This document shows positions 11,067 to 31,549 of a DNA stretch of 64,000 nt, piece by piece. Below the pieces are notes generated by a model. It was not told where the DNA came from. It saw nothing but the letters and a program-made list of their open reading frames with translations, and ran no database searches. This DNA is from Halomicroarcula saliterrae. Its GTDB lineage: Archaea; Halobacteriota; Halobacteria; Halobacteriales; Haloarculaceae. The first letter of the stretch is position 1, and each line of letters starts with the position of its first letter. Both the position numbers and the translations under genes were made by a program. The stretch is taken from assembly GCF_031624395.1 (NCBI RefSeq), contig NZ_JAMQON010000003.1:124001-188000 (forward strand), in the 5' to 3' direction.

Positions 11067-11095
11067 CGAGGAATCTCGCTACGCTCGATTCCTCG
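11067..11095. repeat. Hairpin with 9-11-9 architecture at head of repeat array
   Basis: Arms CGAGGAATC (11067-11075) and GATTCCTCG (11087-11095) enclose an 11-base loop. The right arm belongs to the first unit of the adjoining 21-base tandem repeat, so the array seems to have grown from one side of this hairpin. A hairpin with the same 9-11-9 spacing and near-identical arms lies at 12000-12028, on the other side of the RNase H-fold gene. Confidence 0.65.
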
Positions 11096-11225
11096 CACGC
11101 TACGCTCGATTCCTCGCACGCTACGCTCGATTCCTCGCACGCTACGCTCGATTCCTCGCACGCTACGCTCGATTCCTCGCACGCTACGCTCGATTCCTCG
11201 CACGCTACGCTCGATTCCTCGCTAG
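11079..11225. repeat. 21-base tandem repeat array, about seven units
   Basis: Six identical 21-base units beginning CTACGCTCGATTCCTCG start at 11079, 11100, 11121, 11142, 11163 and 11184. A seventh at 11205 ends GCTAG instead of GCACG. The unit length is a multiple of three, so several frames stay open through the array and read as heptapeptide repeats (RYARFLA, HATLDSS); these are not taken as genes. The last unit contains the stop codon of the nuclease gene on the minus strand. Together with 10995-11078, this is all that the rhomboid-nuclease gap holds. Confidence 0.9.
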
Positions 11226-13614: not shown

Positions 13615-15594
13615 ATGGCAGATAAACCGAATTTAGGCGCGTGGAATCGACGGCAGTTCCTCCGGGCGGCCGGTGTCACGACCGTGACCGGGATGCTCGC
13701 GGGTTGTGGCGGACTGACGAATCAGGAGTTCATCGCCGATAGGGTCGTCCTGCCGGAGGCCGACCAGCAGGCGCTCGACTTCGCGCCGCTGGTCGAGGAT
13801 ACCGAGCGCCGCACGTTCACCCGGTCGGTCGGCGGACAGGACGTGACGGCGACGGTCGAGAGCGCCATTTCGGTGTACGGCCAGACGGACCTCGAGCTCT
13901 CGTTTAGCGGCTCCGAAGGGGCGCTGCTGTTCCGATTCGCCGGCGGCGACGCGCCCTTCGAGGGCTCGCCCACCGACCGGCGCGCCGCGCCGGCGTCGGC
14001 GTTCGACACCGCCGGCGGCTATCTGCCCTTCCTCGACGGCGACGACACCGTCGACCCGGCCGGTATCGTGCTGTTCGCGCCGACGGACACCGACGGTCCC
14101 GTCGACGCGAGCCGGACACTGGCCGTGGCCCACCGTTCGGCGTTCGAGGGGAACGAGTCGTTCGCCGTCGCCGACGGCGGCGTGCTGTTCCCGGGCGACC
14201 AGTTCTTCCCGGGGAGCGACTGGTTCCCGGGGGCCGACTGGTTCCCGAGTGACAACTGGGTGATGCCCGGCGACAACGCGAGCGCGGATGTGGCGTTCTT
14301 CCCCGGGCCCGACGTAGACGCCGAATCCGCCGGCCCGTCGGGGACCGGCAAGACGATGTTCGAGGCGGGCCAGAAGGTCGAAGCCGAGTACGTCGCCGCG
14401 CCGGCCAGCGTGTTCCTCGACACTGGCGTCTCAATCACCGACCCGGACCGCGTGGCCGACGCGCTCGGGGTGGACCAGCGGCCCGTGGCCGAGCCCGCCG
14501 ACGCGGGCATCATCGTGTTCTCCGACCGCAAACGGGGCGTGCCGATGGCGTATTTCCCCGGCGACACGCTCTTTCCGGACGGGTACTTCTTCCCGGACGG
14601 CTACTTCGCCGGGGACCGGCAGGTGCTGTCGGCCCCGCTCGGCGAACTGTTCCCCGATTCGGCGTTCTTCCCGGACTCCGCGTTCTCGCCGGCCTACACG
14701 GAGAAGACACCGGCGCTTTTCTTCCCGGATTCGACCTTCGACGACGTGCCGGAGCCGTTCAGCGTCGTCGAATCGGGTTCGGAACTCCGGCCGGAGGAGG
14801 CGCTGCTGTTCTTCGGGGCCGACGGCACTGCGTTCCCGGACTCGACGTTCTTCCCGGACTCGACGTTCTTCCCGGACACGCTGTTTTTCCCCGACTCGGC
14901 GTTCTTTCCGGATTCAGCCTTCGCCACGATGGGAGCGACCACCAACCCGGTTGCCGGCGGCGACCTTCCGGAGGCGTTCCCGGACACGCTTTTCTTCCCG
15001 GACTCGACGTTCAGTCCCACGGAACTGCTCCACGTCCCCGGCGAGTTCGACCTCTCGGCCGACACCTTCGAGCGCGGAGGGACCACCGTCGCGCTCACCA
15101 CGGGCTCGTTCGACAACCTCAACGCCGACACCCTCGGCGGCGGGACGATAAGCGTCGGCGCGCTCAGTACGCCCGCGGCGAACGTGGCCGGCCAGTCGCT
15201 GAACCCGCTGGCTCGGCTCGGGCTGGCCGACCTCCTGACCAGCGACCAGGCCGAGTCGTTCCTCACCGCTGCCGGCGTCGGCGGCGGCGAGACCGTGAAC
15301 TGGGAACGCGGGCCCGAAAAGCTCTCCACGGTCGACGGAACGCTGCTGGACCGGGACGTGACCATCGAGACCCACGCCGGCATCGTCAGCGGTGAGACGC
15401 CGGACGCCACCTACCTCCACATGGCCCGGGTCGAGACCGACAGCAGCGTGGTCGTCACGACCGGCATCCAGAGCTTCGGCGTCGAGTCCACGGACAGGGC
15501 CTTCGCCGGGGCGGACGGCTACCTCACGGAGAGCGAACTCGAAGACGTCCGGTCGACGGTCGCGGGCGTCGTCGAGCGACTGGTCGTCCGCTAG
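13615..15594 (+). CDS. Tat lipoprotein with FPD-S/T-x-F repeats
   Basis: A 659-residue exported lipoprotein. The signal is NRRQFLRAAGVTTVTGMLAGC: a twin-arginine motif followed by a lipobox with Cys at about residue 31, so it should be lipid-anchored on the outer face of the membrane. Residues about 40-185 and 500-659 look like the two halves of a haloarchaeal lipoprotein domain (DUF6517-like; tentative). Between them, residues about 192-468 carry some 18 copies of an aromatic-FP motif. The densest run is six-residue units FFPDST/FFPDSA, with FFPGSDW-type variants earlier. No function is known. The region is acidic and aromatic, and it could form a repeated beta structure or a metal-binding surface. 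Its stop codon shares CTAG with the HIT gene. Confidence 0.75.
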   Translation: MADKPNLGAWNRRQFLRAAGVTTVTGMLAGCGGLTNQEFIADRVVLPEADQQALDFAPLVEDTERRTFTRSVGGQDVTATVESAISVYGQTDLELSFSGSEGALLFRFAGGDAPFEGSPTDRRAAPASAFDTAGGYLPFLDGDDTVDPAGIVLFAPTDTDGPVDASRTLAVAHRSAFEGNESFAVADGGVLFPGDQFFPGSDWFPGADWFPSDNWVMPGDNASADVAFFPGPDVDAESAGPSGTGKTMFEAGQKVEAEYVAAPASVFLDTGVSITDPDRVADALGVDQRPVAEPADAGIIVFSDRKRGVPMAYFPGDTLFPDGYFFPDGYFAGDRQVLSAPLGELFPDSAFFPDSAFSPAYTEKTPALFFPDSTFDDVPEPFSVVESGSELRPEEALLFFGADGTAFPDSTFFPDSTFFPDTLFFPDSAFFPDSAFATMGATTNPVAGGDLPEAFPDTLFFPDSTFSPTELLHVPGEFDLSADTFERGGTTVALTTGSFDNLNADTLGGGTISVGALSTPAANVAGQSLNPLARLGLADLLTSDQAESFLTAAGVGGGETVNWERGPEKLSTVDGTLLDRDVTIETHAGIVSGETPDATYLHMARVETDSSVVVTTGIQSFGVESTDRAFAGADGYLTESELEDVRSTVAGVVERLVVR

Positions 15595-16007: not shown

Positions 16008-16191
16008 GGTCGGCGGTGCGGCCGGCGCGGGCATGAAAGTTTCTCCGGGAGCCACCGGACCGGCGACACATCGCGACGTGTCTCCGCAGAGACGCCGATT
16101 AGCGCGGACAGCTCCGAGCGGATAGACGCCGACGCCCCGGGCGGTGTCGGAAATGAAAATTGATTTAACACTCCGAGTGGCCGAATAATCT

Positions 16192-16530
16192 ATGCGAGAG
16201 TACATCTATCTCGCCGCTGCCATCGCGGCCGAAGTAACGGGTACTACCGCGCTGAAATTCTCGGACGGGTTCTCGGCACTCGTCCCGACCACTGTCGTAC
16301 TTGTCGCGTACATCGGCTCGTTTTACTTGCTCAGCCTCACGCTCCAGGAGCTGCCTATCGGGCTGGTGTATGCGACCTGGTCCGCAGTCGGAATCGTCGG
16401 GGCCGCCGCGATCGGGTTGGTGCTGTTCGACGAGACGGTCGACGTGGCCGGTGTCGCCGGCATCCTGCTCATCATCGCCGGCGTCGCCGTTCTCAACCTC
16501 ATGTCGGAGACGTACTCGCCCGCTGCCTGA
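16192..16530 (+). CDS. SMR-family (EmrE-like) small multidrug transporter
   Basis: A 112-residue four-helix membrane protein of the small multidrug resistance family. Glu14, in AAEVTGTTALKFSDGF, is the essential proton/substrate residue. The family motif LPIGLVYATWSAVGIVGAAAIG is present, split here by convention over helix 3. It exports cationic compounds in exchange for protons as a dimer. A TTTAA stretch at 16164-16168 lies about 25 bases before the ATG, so the transcript is probably leaderless. A GTGGCCGAATA motif lies between the two. It converges on the UbiA gene with 23 bases between. A link to that lipid-type cluster is possible but unproven. Confidence 0.85.
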   Translation: MREYIYLAAAIAAEVTGTTALKFSDGFSALVPTTVVLVAYIGSFYLLSLTLQELPIGLVYATWSAVGIVGAAAIGLVLFDETVDVAGVAGILLIIAGVAVLNLMSETYSPAA

Positions 16531-16553
16531 GGTCGACCCCGGAGGTCCGGTCC

Positions 16554-17441
16554 TCAGCTCAGAAGCAGCCAGAGACCGGGCACCATCAGGGGGATACCGA
16601 CGACGGCGTTGATCGTCGGGAACCACCAGTAGGCCCGTTCCACGTCGATGTCCTCGACCATGATGAACAGGTCGATCACCGGATAGAGAAGGAAGACGAG
16701 CGCCGCGGCCAGATGCAACTGAGCGAAGACGACGGCCGCGAGCAGCCAGCAGACGCCGGTGTAGACGAGTGATTTCCGTTTGCCCAGCACCGACGCGAGC
16801 GTCCGAACACCCGCTTTTCGGTCCGGGCCGATATCCGGGATGGCGGAGAAGGTGTGATACCCCATCGTCCAGAGCCAGAACCCGACGACACCACTCATCG
16901 GCGGGAACGAACCGGCGATAGTGATGTACGCCGCGATACCGGGCAGCAGGTAGAGCCCGTTCACGACCGAGTCGACGAAGGGTATCGACTTCAGCCGGAG
17001 CGGCGGTGCGCTGTAGGTCACTGTGAGGAACGCCCATCCCCCGAGTGCGAGCAACGCGACGGGTGATGTCGTCAGGAAAAACAGCGGCACCGCGAGGAGA
17101 CCGCTGAGCACGATCGCCGCCTTCACGCCCGGAGTGTCACGGAACGACTGCTCCTTGCCCTCCTCGGACTTTTTCGGGTTGTGTTCGTCGGTGTCCGTGT
17201 CGAAGGCGTCGTTGACCCCGTAGAGGAACAGGTTCCCCGGGACGAGGAAGTACACTGCGAACGCGATCGCGGCCGGTGACGTGAGGTCCGAGGCCGAACT
17301 CGCTCCGTAGATGAGTGCGAGCAACACTGGGCTGCCAAGGAAATGCCAGTAGCGGGGTCTGGATAGCCGGAAGAGGTATCCGAGCCGTGACTCCGCGGTC
17401 GGGACGATTCGCATCGGCTGTGTCTCTCTGTTTTCGCTCAT
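16554..17441 (-). CDS. UbiA-superfamily prenyltransferase
   Basis: A 295-residue integral membrane prenyltransferase with seven to nine hydrophobic segments. Both Asp-rich motifs that bind Mg-prenyl diphosphate are present: NDAFDTDTDEHNPKK at about 76-90 and DIGPDRKAGVRTLASVLG at about 200-217. The LSRPRYWHFLGSP start and the NDxFDxDxDxxNPKK form resemble haloarchaeal lycopene elongases of bacterioruberin synthesis. However, the usual crtD and cruF partners are absent here. It is the second gene of a probable unit with the upstream Lgt-like gene (97-base gap). A lipid, quinone or carotenoid acceptor is possible. Confidence 0.82.
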   Translation of the reverse strand: MSENRETQPMRIVPTAESRLGYLFRLSRPRYWHFLGSPVLLALIYGASSASDLTSPAAIAFAVYFLVPGNLFLYGVNDAFDTDTDEHNPKKSEEGKEQSFRDTPGVKAAIVLSGLLAVPLFFLTTSPVALLALGGWAFLTVTYSAPPLRLKSIPFVDSVVNGLYLLPGIAAYITIAGSFPPMSGVVGFWLWTMGYHTFSAIPDIGPDRKAGVRTLASVLGKRKSLVYTGVCWLLAAVVFAQLHLAAALVFLLYPVIDLFIMVEDIDVERAYWWFPTINAVVGIPLMVPGLWLLLS

Positions 17442-17538
17442 ATCTGTTGTTGGATTTGTAGCTTACACTGCGTGGCTGGTTGGTTCGCTGGCGCGTTCGG
17501 TGTGCTGACGACAGCACCACCGAGGCAGGGGAAGCGAC

Positions 17539-18381
17539 TCATAGCGGTAGTATGACCGGGTTCGTCTGGAACGAGAGCCCGACGAAGATGACGGTGAGTG
17601 CTGCGAGCGATACCCACTGTGCCTCGGATAGTGGCCCCCAGTTCGGCCGGGCACTCGACATCCTGAAGAAGTCGCTCAGGAACCGGTAACCGGTGTAGCT
17701 GAGGAGATACAGCGGCAGCGTCAGTCCGGTGACGCCCACGGCGAGGAGCCGCCACAGGAGGACGCCAAACAGCAGGAAGTTGAACGCCGCTTCGACGATT
17801 TGGATGGGGAACACCCGGCAGCCGGGGTTTTCGCCGGAGGAGAACGACTGACAGTTGCCGTCGTGGTCCGTGAAAACCTTGCTCGGGTATCGCACCCCGT
17901 ACTTCCAGGGAACACCGTAGCAACAGCCGCCGAGGAAACAGCCGACCCGGATGAACCCGAGCAGGACTGGGAGCTGCAAGCCGATGAGGTCCATCGTCGC
18001 GCGGAGGTCCACGCCCAGCGCGACGGCCGTTCCGATCCACACTGGTAGGACGTAGGCAAAGAGGTCCTGCAGGTACGACCGGGAGTCGATACCGAACAGA
18101 GCGCGCTTCACTCGCAGATATCCCACCTCGAAGGACACCGTCGTGAAGGCGAAGGCGGCGAGAAACCGGAGCCACTGCATCTGAGAGATGGACCCAGAGA
18201 ACAGTACCGCCATCGCGGCGACCAGGACGAGTCCGCTATCGAACAGGATGTGGTACGGATGTATCCCGAGTGTGTCGCGTGTATACTCGTGGACCGTTCT
18301 GAGCGCGTGTTCGATTCTGTTACTCGACGCTCGGCCTCGCTCGGGCGTGGACGATTCCGAGAGTTCATCAGCGGCGTTCAT
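17539..18381 (-). CDS. Lgt-like polytopic membrane protein
   Basis: A 280-residue membrane protein resembling bacterial prolipoprotein diacylglyceryl transferase (Lgt). The Lgt-type signature appears as FIRVGCFLGGCCYGVPWKYG near residues 142-162. It is followed by VFPIQIVEAAFNF in the place of Lgt's HPxQLYE, then YTGYRFLSDFFRMSSARPNW with an RF..DF.R pattern. The usual Asn of GRIGNFxNGE is replaced by Cys, and the HGG motif that supplies the Lgt catalytic His is not evident, so the same reaction cannot be assumed. It is probably transcribed with the UbiA gene downstream and is divergent from the methyltransferase. It could attach a lipid or prenyl group to a protein or headgroup; that is inference. 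Confidence 0.65.
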   Translation of the reverse strand: MNAADELSESSTPERGRASSNRIEHALRTVHEYTRDTLGIHPYHILFDSGLVLVAAMAVLFSGSISQMQWLRFLAAFAFTTVSFEVGYLRVKRALFGIDSRSYLQDLFAYVLPVWIGTAVALGVDLRATMDLIGLQLPVLLGFIRVGCFLGGCCYGVPWKYGVRYPSKVFTDHDGNCQSFSSGENPGCRVFPIQIVEAAFNFLLFGVLLWRLLAVGVTGLTLPLYLLSYTGYRFLSDFFRMSSARPNWGPLSEAQWVSLAALTVIFVGLSFQTNPVILPL

Positions 18382-18500
18382 TGTTTCGTCTTTTCGTCAG
18401 CTATATTATATTCTCTTCTGTCAGTAATATCTTTTTATCTGTTTTTCTATAGTAAATATTAGCTCAAAATGCTTTTGTTATAACAACCCGACGTGTACGT
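18382..18500. promoter_or_regulatory. AT-rich divergent promoter region of the lipid-type cluster
   Basis: A 119-base stretch that is far more AT-rich than the rest of the window, between the Lgt-like gene (minus) and the methyltransferase (plus). Several TATA-like stretches are visible (CTATATTATATTC near 18402-18414, TATAGTAAATATTAG near 18448-18462, TTTTGTTATAAC near 18474-18485). It probably drives both directions. The unusual composition may also mark a recombination or transfer boundary. Confidence 0.55.
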
Positions 18501-19154
18501 ATGGATGACAGCGCGACCGAACACGCACATCCGTGGTTCGCTGCGGTGTACGACCCAGTGACTGCGTGGGTCGAACGGCTCGTATTCCGGCGACACCGGG
18601 CGTATCTGACCGAGAATCTCTCCGGCCCCGTACTGGATATCGGGAGCGGCACGGGAGCCATGTTCTCACACTACGGTGACAAACTCGAATCGGGGGCGAC
18701 GACGGTCCACGCCGTCGAACCCGATCCGCATATGCTCGAACAGGCCAGAGAGAAGGCCACAGAGTCGGACGTGGACATCGAGTTACAGCGGGCGGCCGCC
18801 GAGTCACTGCCGTTTGCCGACGACACCTTCGACACCGTAATCGGCGCGCTGGTGTTCTGTACAATCGGCGACGCGGAACAGGCGCTATCCGAGATTCACC
18901 GTGTCCTGTCCCCAGACGGGGAGTTCCGGTTCTTCGAGCACGTCCGTGACACCGGCTGGCGACAGTCGGTACAGACCGCCCTCAACCCGGTCTGGAAGCG
19001 GGCTGTCGGTGGCTGTAACCTCGTCCGGGACACACAGCGGCTCTTCGCGTCGGGACCCGAGTTTGAAGTCGCCGAGTGCCAGCAGTTCAGGGACGGACTC
19101 GTTCCGGTGAACCCATTTATTCGTGGAGTGCTGTGCCCGACGAACGTGGGCTAG
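18501..19154 (+). CDS. Class I SAM-dependent methyltransferase
   Basis: A 217-residue Rossmann-fold methyltransferase. Motif I is VLDIGSGTGAMFSHYG, motif II the acidic end of VHAVEPDPHMLEQA, and later motifs are AAAESLPFADDTFDTVIGAL and EIHRVLSPDGEFRFFEHVRD. The C-terminal NPVWKRAVGGCNLVRDT pattern is common in UbiE/METTL7-like enzymes that act on lipid, quinone or thiol acceptors. The substrate is unknown. It lies between the Lgt-like and geranylgeranyl-reductase-like genes, so a lipid or isoprenoid substrate is a reasonable guess. Its stop shares CTAG with the reductase stop. Confidence 0.82.
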   Translation: MDDSATEHAHPWFAAVYDPVTAWVERLVFRRHRAYLTENLSGPVLDIGSGTGAMFSHYGDKLESGATTVHAVEPDPHMLEQAREKATESDVDIELQRAAAESLPFADDTFDTVIGALVFCTIGDAEQALSEIHRVLSPDGEFRFFEHVRDTGWRQSVQTALNPVWKRAVGGCNLVRDTQRLFASGPEFEVAECQQFRDGLVPVNPFIRGVLCPTNVG

Positions 19155-20518
19155 TATTTCGGCTCCGCTCCGGTAATCTCGTAGACGTCGGCCAGTATCT
19201 CGTCCCGCTCCGACTGCCAGGCCGGTAATCCCTCGGGATGGGACGGGTAGGAGAGATAGTGGTCTTTGAGCGCCTGGGCCTTCGATCGGACCTGCGAAAG
19301 CTCGTACAGTGTGTCCCAGTGCCCGACCGTCCGGAGCAGTATCTTGAGTTTACTCGCCAGACCGACGCTCGCGTCACCGGAGCTGAGGCCGGCCACCAGA
19401 GCTTCGCCCGGAATCGCGGAGACGATACCCGAGAGCTCGTCGACCGAGTTGGCACCGCCCCAGATGTTGTACAGGTCCGCCGCCGCGAACCGCGCCCCGA
19501 AGTCGGTCATCACCTCGTCGTTGTACTGCCAGAGCCGTTCCTCGCTGACATCGTCGGTGGTAATCGCTTCAATCGCCCTCTCAGTCGCTGCTACGGCCGA
19601 TTTCGCCGCTGCGACGATACCGCCGCCAGTGGTCGGATTGACGTGTGCCGCCGAGTCACCCGCCGCCACGAACCCGTCCGCGACGGCGGAATCGTACGGC
19701 CGCCGGGTCGGGAGCGCCGCGCCGAGCTTGTTTCGGACGGTCGCGTCAGCGAACTCGGGGCGGTTCTGCAGGTCGTCCTTGAGAATGTCGACGAGCGCCA
19801 TCGGGTCCTTGTTCATCTGGAATCCGAGCCCCGCGTTGATCTCGGTCCCGTCCCGCGGGAAGTACCACAGATACCCGAGACGCTCGGTCGGTTTGAACAC
19901 GAGCGAGTCCTGCCAGGGGACGGGGTCCGGCACGTCCAGTATCTCCCGGTAGGCCGAACAGAACTGCGAGTAGTCGACGTTCGTATCGAACGTCGACGCC
20001 GAGAACTCCCCCTTGTCTTGGAGGACCGAGAGCGCGCCAGCGGCATCGACCGTCACCGTGGCCTCGTATCTGGTCTGGACACCGTCCCGCACCGCGATGA
20101 CGCCCTCGACGCGGCCGTCGTTCTGCACCAGGTCGTTGACGACCGTGTCGAAGTGGATATCGGCCCCGAGCCGCTCCGCCTCCTCCAGAACGACCTCACC
20201 GTACCGTTTCCGGTCGATGACGACGCTGGACTCGTCGAACGGAATCTCCAGTGTCTGACCGTCGATCGGGTTCTCGAACCGCGCGCCGGTGATGGCTCGG
20301 TTCGTGAACGATTCCGACCGGAGGTAGTCGAGGTCCATGACGTCCGGCAGGCTGTGTTTGCCCTTTATCGCGTCCCCACAGGCTATCTCGCCCGCCTGAT
20401 CGCGCGACTTCCGTTCGAGGATTACTACGTCGAGGCCAGCAGCGGCCGCTTTCGCGGCCGCGAAGGCCCCGGCTGTACCACCACCGACGATTACGATGTC
20501 GAAGGAGGTCCGTTTCAT
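19151..20518 (-). CDS. Geranylgeranyl-reductase-family flavoprotein
   Basis: A 455-residue FAD-dependent reductase. The dinucleotide-binding loop is FDIVIVGGGTAGAFAAAKAA with a following LERK acidic/basic end. The family motif Y-x-W-x-FP appears as LGYLWYFPRD near 220, and the second FAD motif is GDSAAHVNPTTGGGIVAA near 285. Enzymes of this family saturate isoprenoid chains of archaeal ether lipids or of menaquinone side chains, or act in related reactions. The main archaeal lipid reductase of the genome may lie elsewhere, so this could be a specialised paralogue. It is in the cluster with a UbiA prenyltransferase and an Lgt-like protein. Confidence 0.82.
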   Translation of the reverse strand: MKRTSFDIVIVGGGTAGAFAAAKAAAAGLDVVILERKSRDQAGEIACGDAIKGKHSLPDVMDLDYLRSESFTNRAITGARFENPIDGQTLEIPFDESSVVIDRKRYGEVVLEEAERLGADIHFDTVVNDLVQNDGRVEGVIAVRDGVQTRYEATVTVDAAGALSVLQDKGEFSASTFDTNVDYSQFCSAYREILDVPDPVPWQDSLVFKPTERLGYLWYFPRDGTEINAGLGFQMNKDPMALVDILKDDLQNRPEFADATVRNKLGAALPTRRPYDSAVADGFVAAGDSAAHVNPTTGGGIVAAAKSAVAATERAIEAITTDDVSEERLWQYNDEVMTDFGARFAAADLYNIWGGANSVDELSGIVSAIPGEALVAGLSSGDASVGLASKLKILLRTVGHWDTLYELSQVRSKAQALKDHYLSYPSHPEGLPAWQSERDEILADVYEITGAEPKY

Positions 20519-20592
20519 TCGGTAGGCACCAGTTAGGAAAAAGTAACGTTCAGGGCAGCTAAAAGTCCATCGCAGTGGACCGGAACGGCAGA

Positions 20593-21672
20593 TTATGCCG
20601 GTTCACCGGCAAAGAACCGCTGATAGGCGGCCGGAAGGTCGTCAGACGGCGTCGCCGCCTCGGCGCGGGCCGAGATGTCGGTCTCGTTGTACGTGTGGAG
20701 ATAGAGGACGGTCTGCTGGTCCAGCGCCCGGGCGTTCCGCTCGCCGCGCAGGCCCGCGAGCGTCTTGGCGGTGTACGTGAGGTCGAGTTCGAGCCCACAG
20801 TCGGCGGCAGTCCGCTTCGCCCGCCGCGCTTCGGGGGTCACCTCCCCGTACCCGTCTCCGACGTAGCCGTCGACGATAGTTACGTCTTCGGCGGCGAAAC
20901 TCGGACTGTCGGGGACGCCGTGCTCCGCGAGGAGGTCGGCGGTGCGGTTGGCCAGTCGAGCGATCCGGTAGGAGTTCGCGAGGAGTCGCCCGCTGACCCT
21001 GACACCGAGCAGTTCGCTCTGTATCGACGCGAGGCGACAGCCCACTAACAGGCCGGCGAGCGTCCCGCCCGAACCCACGGCGACGACGATGACGTCCGGT
21101 TCCGGGAGCTCCCCGGCGTCTATCTGTCGGCGTAGCTCGAAGGCCGCGTTCACGTATCCGAGTTCGCCAACCGGCGAGGCGCCACCGGGGGGGATGTAGT
21201 AGAACGAGGGGTTCGGATGCAGCCACCGCGTCGCCTTCAGCCGGACCGCCTCGGCGGCGGCCCGTGGCTCGCTCGAAACGAGTTTCAGGTAGGGGTCGGT
21301 CGTGCTCACCGCTCGCAGGTTCTCCCGGACGTGGTCGGTGACCGGTTGCGGGAAGTGGACGATCTGCGGTCGGAGCGACTGCGCTCTCGCGTAGAGACAC
21401 GTCGCGAGCACGTGGTTACTGCCGATACCACCGCCGGTCCAGACGGTCGTACAGTTCCGCCGTTTGGCGTCACCGAGCAGGAACTCCAGTTTCCGGACCT
21501 TGTTGCCGCCGTACAGCTCGCCACTCTGTCCGTCCCGTTTCACGTACAGGTCGGGAACCCCCAGCGTGGCACCCAGTTCGTCGTATCGCTGGACCGGTGT
21601 CGGGAACGTCCCGAGGTCGACGTGTGGCAACTCGGCCCGGTCGGGCAGGAACTCGAACAAAGTGGCAGCCAT
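20593..21672 (-). CDS. PLP-dependent D-cysteine desulfhydrase / ACC-deaminase-like enzyme
   Basis: A 359-residue fold-type II PLP enzyme. The Schiff-base Lys is in the characteristic GELYGGNKVRKLEFLLG near residue 55. WTGGGIGSNHVLATCLYA follows and holds the carboxylate-binding loop. AVGSGGTLAGLLVG is the Gly-rich PLP-phosphate site. This pattern fits the 1-aminocyclopropane-carboxylate deaminase / D-cysteine desulfhydrase group, which release ammonia and a keto acid (and sulfide from D-cysteine). The substrate is not decidable from the sequence. It is downstream of the reductase start by 74 bases on the same strand, so it may be upstream in a shared transcript. Confidence 0.8.
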   Translation of the reverse strand: MAATLFEFLPDRAELPHVDLGTFPTPVQRYDELGATLGVPDLYVKRDGQSGELYGGNKVRKLEFLLGDAKRRNCTTVWTGGGIGSNHVLATCLYARAQSLRPQIVHFPQPVTDHVRENLRAVSTTDPYLKLVSSEPRAAAEAVRLKATRWLHPNPSFYYIPPGGASPVGELGYVNAAFELRRQIDAGELPEPDVIVVAVGSGGTLAGLLVGCRLASIQSELLGVRVSGRLLANSYRIARLANRTADLLAEHGVPDSPSFAAEDVTIVDGYVGDGYGEVTPEARRAKRTAADCGLELDLTYTAKTLAGLRGERNARALDQQTVLYLHTYNETDISARAEAATPSDDLPAAYQRFFAGEPA

Positions 21673-21795
21673 ATGCTACGTTTCCCGGCAGCGAGATATA
21701 ATTGTACTGGACAGACGACCGAAACCGAGTCGCGCCTCGCCGGAGAGCCGACTGGTAACAGCCGTCGACGCCGGTGCTGTGAGCCGTGTCGGCGC

Positions 21796-23127
21796 CTACT
21801 CGTCGGCCAGGTGGCCGGGCGTCCACTCGCCGTCGAACTCCCGGTGGGTAAAGGGCAGCGCGTCCTCCCCGGCGTAGCTGGCGACGAGCTGGCCGTCGCC
21901 TTCGAGGTAGTACTTGTAGGTCGTGAGACCTTCGAGGCCGACCGGACCGCGGGCGTGAATCTTGCCCGTGGAGATGCCGACCTCCGCGCCGAGGCCGTAG
22001 CGGTAGCCGTCCGCGAAGCGCGTCGAGGCGTTGTGGAAGACGCTGGCGGCGTCGATACCGGTCATGAACGTCTCGGCCGCGTCGGCGTCCTCGGTGACGA
22101 TGGATTCGGTGTGCTTCGAGCCGTTAGTGTTGATGTGGTCCACGGCCTCGATAGTGTCCGAAACGACCTTGATGGCCAGTTCGAGGTCGCCGTACTCCGC
22201 GCGCCAGTCGTCGTCGGTGACGGGGTCGACGTCGACGATATCGCGGGTGGCCGCGTCGCCCCGCAGCGTGACGCCTGCCTCGCGGTAGCGGGCGACGGCG
22301 CCCGGCAGGAAGTCGTCGGCGACAGCCTCGTTGACCAGCAGCGTCTCGACGGCGTTACACACCGCGGGGTACTGGACCTTCGCGTCGAGCGCGATGTCCT
22401 CGGCCATCCCCAGGTCGGCCGCCTCGTCGACGTAGACGTGACAGACGCCCTCGGTGTGGCCCAGCACCGGAATCTGGGTGTTTTCCTCGATGTAGGAGAC
22501 GAACTCCGAGGAGCCGCGAGGCATCACGAGGTCCACCATGTCGTCCATCGAAAGCAGGCGGTCGACCTCCTCGTGGGCCTCGATGAGCGTGGCCCACCCC
22601 TCGGGGAGGTCGGCGGTCGCCTCGACGACGGTCTCGTACAGCACGCGGTTGGACTCGCTGGCCTCGCTGCCGCCCTTCAGGATGACGGCGTTGCCCGATT
22701 TCAGGGCGAGCGCGGCGATCTGCACCAGCGCGTCGGGTCGGGACTCGAAGATGGTCCCGACGACGCCGATGGGGACCGACAGCTTGTACAGTTCGAGGTC
22801 CGCGTCGAGTTCGCGCGCGGCGAGTGTCTTCCCCAGCGGGTCCTCCTGTTCCGCGACGGACTCGACCATGCCCGCGATGCTTTCGAGCTTGCCCTCGTCC
22901 AGTTTGAGCCGGTCGACCAGCGCCTGCGTGTACTCGCCCTCGGCGAGCATCGCCTCGGCCGCCTCGACGTCCCGGTCGTTGGCCGCGAGAATCGCCTCGC
23001 TGTTTGCCCGGATAGCGTCCGCAATCTCGGCGAGGGCGGCGTCCCGCCGTGCTGTCTCGACGTTCGCGAGCCGAAGGGCGGCCGTTCCCGCCCGTTCGAC
23101 CTGTTCGTGCGTGGCAGTCTCAGTCAT
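21796..23127 (-). CDS. proA: Glutamate-5-semialdehyde dehydrogenase
   Basis: A 443-residue gamma-glutamyl phosphate reductase, the second step of proline synthesis, using NADPH in the cytoplasm. The catalytic Cys lies in [14 protein letters not shown]. Other ProA hallmarks are [36 protein letters not shown], and [22 protein letters not shown] near the C-terminus. Length is normal. It is the last gene of the proC-proB-proA operon and its ATG overlaps the end of proB by eight bases. Confidence 0.97.
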
Positions 23128-31100: not shown

Positions 31101-31366
31101 GGTACGCACGGGAGGTCATCCGCCGCGTCCAGGAGATGCGAAAGGACCTCGAACTGGATATCGAGGCCCGTATCGTGGTAGACCTCGCTATCGAGGACGA
31201 GCGCGTGGACGCGCTGGTTCGAGAGCACGAAGCCCTCATCAAAGAGGAAGTCCGAGCCGACGAACTCGACGGTGTGGAGGACGGCCACCGCAAGACCTGG
31301 GACGTGGAAGGCGTGGAGATGGAGATCGCGATTGCGCCTGTGGCAGCTGCGGAAGCGTCCGACTAA
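28124..31366 (+). CDS. ileS: Isoleucyl-tRNA synthetase
   Basis: A 1080-residue class I synthetase charging tRNA-Ile. The HIGH-like motif is in PYTSGAAHMGTTWNKTLKD, and the KMSKS-like motif is DGRGMSKSKGILVDP. Zinc-type Cys pairs appear in NQCPRCETGIANNEV and GQCWRCDTDIVRI. Between them lies the editing (CP1) domain with VIWTTTPWTIVANT. The C-terminal anticodon-binding region is of full length. The ATG at 28124 is preferred over an upstream frame that reads MCRCNGDST, because it begins with the usual MERFAAVDDQYDP. Its stop is directly followed by the 61-base repeats. Confidence 0.97.
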   Translation: MERFAAVDDQYDPEAVESGVFDFWDAVDAYEQTKQHRADGEDFFFVDGPPYTSGAAHMGTTWNKTLKDCYIRYLRMQGYDVTDRPGYDMHGLPIETKVEERLDFENKKDIERFGEENFIEECKAFANEQLDGLQSDFQDFGVWMDWDDPYKTLSPEYMEAAWWGFQQAHERGLVEQGQRSINQCPRCETGIANNEVEYHDVGKPSIYVKFPLSDREGSLVIWTTTPWTIVANTFVAADGDLDYVGVDATKDGETERLYVAEPCIEGVLKAGRYDDYEVVEELTGEDLVGWQYDHPLAEEVPDHAQGEGAGQVYTAEYVEADRTGLVHSAPGHGEEDFERGQELGLDIFCPVGGDGVYTDAAGKYAGTFVRDANDEVIADLDANGHLLSSEQGHTVREGQCWRCDTDIVRIVTDQWFITVTDIKDELLANIEDSEWHPQWARDNRFRDFVEDAPDWNVSRQRYWGIPIPIWLPEDWSGDMTDAIVVGDREELAERVDQDIDPESVDIHKGTVDELTITEDGTTYSRVGDVFDVWLDSSVATWGTVDYPQETDAFEELWPADLIMEAHDQTRGWFWSQLGMSTAATGEIPYKEVLMHGYANMPDGRGMSKSKGILVDPHEVIDEHGRDPMRLFLLSVTAQGEDMNFSWEETGEMQRRLNILWNVARFPLPYMRADDFDPNETTVESMRAALELVDEWVLSRLQTVKTAMTEHMDDYENDKAVGELLDFVVEDVSRFYIQVVRERMWEEEDSDSKQAAYATLYRVLEEVAALFAPFTPFVAEEVYGSLTGETDHPTVHMCDWPEPVDDLHDPALEDEIEVVREVEEAGSNARQQAERKLRWPVTRVVVDVAGQGPAGSQTGSDDSDDVADAVRSQSEVVADRLNARAVEVVGADEQWGELHYSAGADMSELGPAFGDDAGRVMNAMNEANIDTPSLDTLEGSVSDALGEPVELTEEMVTFRRETPDGVSGTEFTALDGGGTVYVDTALTEDIESEGYAREVIRRVQEMRKDLELDIEARIVVDLAIEDERVDALVREHEALIKEEVRADELDGVEDGHRKTWDVEGVEMEIAIAPVAAAEASD

Positions 31367-31549
31367 CACGAGCCCGACCAGCGGGAGGGCTCGAACCGAG
31401 TGAGCGGTGATAGCGGAGCCGCGAGCACACGAGCCCGTCCAGCGGGAGGGCTCGAACCGAGTGAGCGGTGATAGCGGAGCCGCGAGCACACGAGCCCGTC
31501 CAGCGGGAGGGCTCGCACCGAGCGAGCGGTGACAGCGGGGCGACGCTTG
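31367..31549. repeat. Three tandem 61-base repeats downstream of ileS
   Basis: Units begin CACGAGCCCG at 31367, 31428 and 31489, one base after the ileS stop. Units 1 and 2 are nearly identical (one base differs in the first 20). Unit 3 is degenerate after about 30 bases. Each contains GAGCCC and GGGCTC arms around a short loop, and CTCGAACCGAG, so each can fold as a hairpin. The arrangement could act as a terminator or RNA-end stabiliser. It is not coding. Confidence 0.85.

Follow-up and report, generated by a model that had tools for sequence, protein, structure and literature searches.

Six genes lie between the HIT gene and proA of Halomicroarcula saliterrae, and the question that they raise is whether they form one lipid-modifying pathway or are a collection of unrelated genes. 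Among them are a UbiA prenyltransferase, a reductase of the geranylgeranyl reductase (GGR) family and a protein similar to Lgt. Lgt is a bacterial enzyme that attaches lipid anchors to proteins. An earlier note, written from the sequence alone, had proposed that the whole set could constitute a single new pathway, with quinone maturation as a rival. Here, we examine the identity of the genes, the origin of the block and the company that each gene keeps in other genomes. The term window denotes the whole 64-kb stretch of DNA that was analysed.

Layout and origin of the block

The features of the block are collected in Table 1. The six gene families and the positions given for them in the earlier note could be reproduced, as open reading frames are present there and match the corresponding family models. 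A chance cluster of open reading frames was also considered, and is ruled out by the family matches.

Table 1. Features of the block between the HIT gene and proA (window coordinates).
Feature	Position	Strand	Family match or remark
SMR-family small multidrug transporter	16192-16530	+	PF00893 100.7 bits
UbiA prenyltransferase, PRK12875 family, diverged LyeJ paralogue	16554-17441	-	PF01040 88 bits
Lgt-like membrane enzyme, GCCYG type	17539-18381	-	PF01790 66.2 bits
AT-rich divergent spacer, Lgt-like/methyltransferase	18382-18500		30% GC
Class I SAM-dependent methyltransferase	18501-19154	+	PF08241 80 bits
GGR-2 subfamily isoprenoid reductase (flavoprotein)	19151-20518	-	TIGR02032 205 bits
Fold-type II PLP enzyme, D-cysteine desulfhydrase/cysteate lyase-like	20593-21672	-	PF00291 122.6 bits
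Non-conserved segment (island), HIT to proA, 5.75 kb	~16048-21796		DNA similarity to relatives breaks off

The Lgt-like gene is followed by the UbiA gene on the same (-) strand after a gap of 97 bp, and the PLP enzyme gene by the GGR gene, also on the (-) strand, after 74 bp; each of these pairs is likely to be a transcription unit. The methyltransferase gene is divergent from the Lgt-like gene, and is convergent with the GGR gene, whose end it overlaps by 4 bp. The AT-rich divergent spacer in the middle of the cluster is indeed unusual, since only 15 of the 63,882 windows of the same size (119 bp) in the 64 kb have a lower GC content, and the flanking regions are near 67% GC. TATA-like stretches can be read from the sequence ca 25 nt upstream of the start codons of both the Lgt-like gene and the methyltransferase gene, and we infer that the spacer likely holds leaderless archaeal promoters for the two.

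A DNA search covering 32 genomes of the genus, the source genome included, found the HIT gene and proA-proB-proC to be conserved, and no second copy of the segment in the 31 other genomes. The similarity to the relatives stops at ca 16047 and resumes at ca 21797. In one relative (G385), the interval between HIT and proA consists of a single uracil-DNA-glycosylase (UDG)-like gene, named by eye from the sequence, and in another (G299) it is shorter than 100 bp. The closest copy of the UDG gene elsewhere in the source genome is just 43% identical, which means that the ortholog is gone. The synteny shows that the UDG gene between HIT and proA has been replaced by the island.

The island genes have GC3 values of 0.76-0.83, compared to 0.88-0.91 for proA, proB and proC. 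No convincing direct or inverted repeats were found at the island ends and no tRNA within the 64-kb window, and among the plasmids searched the island is matched over at most about a fifth of its length. The island lies on a contig of 508 kb, in an assembly with 100% completeness and 4.75% contamination. Since the GGR, the UbiA and the methyltransferase are haloarchaeal in character, it is unlikely that the island is an assembly chimera. The different histories of the six genes point to a horizontally acquired, species-specific cassette, and the absence of the block from every other searched genome argues that this cassette is accessory rather than a conserved pathway.

Some other features of the window can be mentioned here. 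A perfect tandem array of seven copies of a 21-bp unit (CGCTACGCTCGATTCCTCGCA) is located at 11077-11222, and a 61-bp tandem repeat (2.8 copies, 96% matches) at 31366-31538. At 13615-15594, a Tat-type protein is encoded. It has a lipobox-like motif (TGMLAGCGG), its gene contains numerous 18-bp repeats encoding FPDS/FFPD motifs, and its C-terminus is also preserved next to the HIT gene of one relative in the genus.

The Lgt-like protein

The score of the Lgt-like protein with PF01790 is well above the curated cut-off of 24.9 bits, while a phmmer search against the PDB gave no match. The AlphaFold2 model of the protein, calculated together with 58 bacterial relatives, has a pLDDT of 77. The best Foldseek match of this model is E. 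coli Lgt (5AZB), with a Z of 17.0 and an rmsd of 3.9 over 234 residues. It is the only strong one, as the next match has a Z of 7.2.

The residues were then mapped onto an E. coli Lgt reference sequence that had been checked against PDB 5AZB. The residues Y26, R143, Y235, R239 and R246, reported to be essential in E. coli Lgt (PMC4728403), correspond to Y43, R145, Y229, R233 and R240, respectively, and G145, G154, Q199 and E202 (E. coli numbering) are also kept. E243 is replaced by an aspartate (D237), the HGGL arm and an equivalent of H103 are missing, and the Lgt signature GRLGNFINGE is altered, with N146 and E151 changed to Cys and G142 to Ile. Mutants of R143, R239, R246, E243, H103 and E151 in the E. 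coli enzyme fail to complement (PMC4728403). An Lgt fold and pocket are thus shown for the island protein at the level of a predicted structure.

It is important to point out that bacterial relatives of the GCCYG type likewise lack H103 (Tyr) and E151 (Cys), and that a GCCYG-type protein is the sole PF01790 match in some of the searched genomes (G727, G730 and G733, the completeness of which is not stated). The missing H103 and E151 do therefore not prove a loss of Lgt activity. The profile with which the genome contigs were searched for Lgt relatives came from an alignment including one made-up bacterial-style row, which served to broaden its reach. The bacterial relatives obtained in this way are a sample of those present, and the invariant Cys pattern among them is partly circular. 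In several Clostridia (L039, L042, L049, L059, L064, L076 and L102; ca 9.1-10.4 kb), the GCCYG-type paralogue is often preceded by a gene for a small DUF4190-like membrane protein on the same strand.

Within the Halobacteria, a full-length Lgt-family match is found in one of 391 genomes, which is the source genome itself, and a search across the phylum (393 genomes) gave no further match above the cut-off. Weak PF01790 matches below the cut-off in G246, G417 and G705 were dismissed. In another haloarchaeal family, a search found a single intact relative (38% identity). It comes from an incomplete genome, G716, in which the neighbouring genes encode a sulfatase-like protein and a transporter of the MFS type. 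In the tree, this protein and that of the island form one branch (100/98), whose long stem arises within the LGG subgroup of Firmicutes paralogues, a placement that calls for caution about long branches. A fragment in G276 (L010 1456-1752), corresponding to 98 residues of the C-terminus, is perhaps the remnant of a decayed gene. A scan of genome contigs with the single protein found no relative, and no Lgt match was obtained among plasmids. According to reviews, archaea have no Lgt homologues (PMC12186497, PMC2945643); given the proteins in this genome and in G716, such statements need a footnote.

As to its neighbours, Lgt lies beside UbiA or GGR in no other searched genome, and in the ca 80 bacterial Lgt-like loci neither the island UbiA nor the island GGR has a recognisable relative.

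The prenyltransferase, the reductase and the remaining genes

The island UbiA scores 362.6 bits with the PRK12875 model (cut-off 205), and the two Asp-rich motifs ascribed to it previously are both present (NDAFDTDTD at residue 77, and DIGPD). The LyeJ of the source genome itself is encoded at C1:1244709, within crtD-lyeJ-cruF, and is 52.7% identical to the island enzyme. In the tree, the latter is grouped with non-LyeJ copies (96/99), although the branches are long and caution is needed. Among the matches listed, nearly every haloarchaeon has one LyeJ-type copy with about 46-55% identity, no other copy in 292 genomes is more than 55% identical, and only the source genome has three copies of the LyeJ-type UbiA family.

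The GGR is above the TIGR02032 cut-off of 158.8 bits, and keeps the equivalent of the catalytic Cys47 and, as YLWYFP, the cavity motif YxWxFP, which are known features of GGR enzymes (PMC10821996). With the model for the haloarchaeal DGGGPL reductase (NF041385) it reaches 52.1 bits, compared to a cut-off of 700. Copies of GGR-2 with ca 58-68% identity occur in roughly 125 of 391 Halobacteria, and the 29 best of these loci are flanked by ordinary, varied neighbours, with the exception of the Haloferax larsenii-type locus. In a genus relative, a match to the core GGR gene (G295 C1:1174472-1175830) has an in-frame TAG stop.

On the H. larsenii plasmid pHl5678-1, a LyeJ-like UbiA is located 2.3 kb from a GGR that is 67% identical to that of the island. 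On contig C5 of the source genome, another LyeJ-like UbiA is located 0.8 kb from a GGR of the DGGGPL-reductase type (694 bits, cut-off 700). The plasmid and C5 clusters are homologs, so that they and the island amount to two independent events. Among the non-LyeJ relatives that were examined, the copy in Halomontanus has no GGR alongside. The genome of H. volcanii has five GGR-type genes (PMC10821996), and from this number and ca 4,000 genes per genome the chance that a GGR falls within five genes of any one locus can be roughly estimated at ca 1%. The pairing of UbiA and GGR therefore looks real. This is the part of the earlier lipid-gene idea that gains support, as the pairing is found again in a further type of cluster, of which there are two examples; as one pathway of the whole set, the idea is not supported by conservation.

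The recurring cluster on C5 (L126 7419-14070) and on the H. larsenii plasmid (L119 7989-14576) comprises three UbiA genes, a purine-type phosphoribosyltransferase, a SnoaL-like protein, an alpha/beta hydrolase and a GGR, and the GGR subfamily differs between the two versions.

Homologues of the methyltransferase with ca 50% identity are found in 76 of 197 Halobacteria, the source genome included. In one haloarchaeal family they are ca 10-20 kb from LyeJ, which looks like lineage synteny and was left uncounted. The description of the PLP enzyme as D-cysteine-desulfhydrase-like can be kept at the level of the general PALP family, but not at that of the subfamily, since the score with TIGR01275 is 172.9 bits, below the cut-off of 289.4. 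A search of 196 other Halobacteria gave no match to this enzyme at E<=1e-30, its best plasmid matches are bacterial (43% in Streptomyces), and the protein is less acidic than the neighbouring ones. The SMR gene, like the methyltransferase gene, is common, with ca 68-75% DNA matches elsewhere in genus relatives.

Possible functions and comparison with known systems

The reading of the whole set as one new pathway fails the test that the earlier note had set for it, because the genes are scattered in relatives and the segment is absent from the 31 other genus genomes. Adjacency in other Halobacteria was the check that had been suggested: the Lgt-like gene is present in 1 of 391 genomes and the PLP gene in 1 of 197, and the remaining genes have unrelated neighbours elsewhere. 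The single-pathway idea is unsupported by conservation.

What we tentatively favour is that the accessory cassette which replaced the UDG gene has a core that tailors isoprenoid membrane lipids, together with passengers. The LyeJ-like UbiA would attach an isoprenyl group to a lipid acceptor, which may be an isoprenoid or another lipid, and the GGR-2 would saturate isoprenoid double bonds by means of a host electron carrier. The Lgt-like protein would use the conserved Arg/Arg pocket to take a lipid-glyceryl group from a phospholipid and pass it on to a nucleophile, which may be a cysteine thiol. The methyltransferase, the PLP enzyme and the SMR transporter are more likely to be passengers than steps of the pathway.

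A mosaic of unrelated accessory genes at an insertion hotspot, with no common pathway, is a serious possibility. The distribution and the neighbours elsewhere differ from gene to gene, the lower acidity and the bacterial plasmid matches of the PLP protein are in line with it, and a shared function is not required, since the parts may have arrived in successive insertions. However, three of the six genes encode lipid or isoprenoid enzymes, the combination of a LyeJ-like UbiA with a GGR recurs in another cluster type, and there are two same-strand pairs with short gaps. Our best guess is lipid tailoring by part of the cassette, which we place only a little ahead of the mosaic.

Another option considered, which we find rather unlikely, is that a bacterially acquired Lgt-type enzyme, adapted to ether isoprenoid lipids, makes an unusual isoprenoid lipid anchor and attaches it to proteins or small thiols with the help of the accessory prenyltransferase and reductase. 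It is unlikely, too, that the Lgt-like protein provides a second way of lipidating lipoproteins beside the AliA/AliB route, the other genes being incidental. The predicted fold and the retained catalytic pocket would be consistent with such a role, and the genomes in which a GCCYG-type protein is the sole match suggest that proteins of this type may be genuine Lgt enzymes. On the other hand, the HGGL arm is missing and E151 is replaced, and there is no evident need for such an enzyme, since in haloarchaea the lipidation of lipobox proteins proceeds without Lgt (PMC2945643, PMC12186497).

Carotenoid tailoring, where the UbiA would be a second lycopene-elongase-like enzyme and the GGR-2 and the methyltransferase would modify the carotenoid, is quite improbable. 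The PRK12875 membership and the identity to the LyeJ of the same genome fit, but the island contains neither crtD nor cruF, the UbiA is outside both the crtD-lyeJ-cruF synteny and the LyeJ clade and groups with copies outside carotenoid clusters, and the Lgt-like protein is left unexplained. Least probable is menaquinone maturation by prenylation, methylation and side-chain saturation: quinone members exist in the UbiA, methyltransferase and GGR families and haloarchaeal membranes are menaquinone-rich (PMC10821996), but the quinone reading of the earlier note finds no specific support, as the UbiA is in the LyeJ family rather than MenA/UbiA proper, the methyltransferase reaches 60.9 bits with the UbiE/MenG model TIGR01934 (cut-off 158.35), and the MenJ model gives 49.6 (cut-off 700).

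Lipid tailoring by part of the cassette remains the reading that we tentatively prefer. The island points to a recurring, unstudied pairing of LyeJ-like UbiA with GGR enzymes. It also places a protein with a predicted Lgt fold in one haloarchaeon, and a second such protein is present in another haloarchaeal family. The island protein keeps the proposed lipid-transfer pocket and has lost the His103 arm. It thereby offers a test of which parts of Lgt are needed for lipid transfer, and of whether ether lipids of archaea can serve this fold as substrates.

With bacterial Lgt (5AZB) and the GCCYG-type paralogues of Clostridia, the island protein has in common the predicted fold, the multi-TM layout, the equivalents of R143, Y235, R239, R246, Y26 and G154, and the RxGCFLGGCCYG motif. 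It differs from bacterial Lgt in its archaeal host, in the missing HGGL motif, and in having Cys for E151 and N146 and Asp for E243. Its identity to bacterial Lgt and the GCCYG type is 24-30% over the whole alignment, and only the G716 protein shares its long branch.

The island UbiA resembles the lycopene elongase LyeJ in family, Asp motifs and sequence identity, whereas LyeJ sits in a carotenoid cluster and the island copy outside one, grouping with non-LyeJ copies. Similarly, the island GGR shares the TIGR02032 family, Cys47 and YxWxFP with the haloarchaeal geranylgeranyl reductases, but represents a second subfamily, unlike the DGGGPL reductase of NF041385. The pHl5678-1 cluster (GGR, three UbiA, phosphoribosyltransferase, NTF2/SnoaL-like protein, alpha/beta hydrolase) also has a LyeJ-like UbiA and a GGR-2 within a few kb; it carries other genes in place of the Lgt, methyltransferase and PLP genes. 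Finally, judged by its description, the archaeal AliA/AliB route of lipobox-protein lipidation possibly shares chemistry with the Lgt-like protein. That route was described for an archaeon said to have no Lgt homologues (PMC12186497), whereas the island carries an Lgt-like protein.
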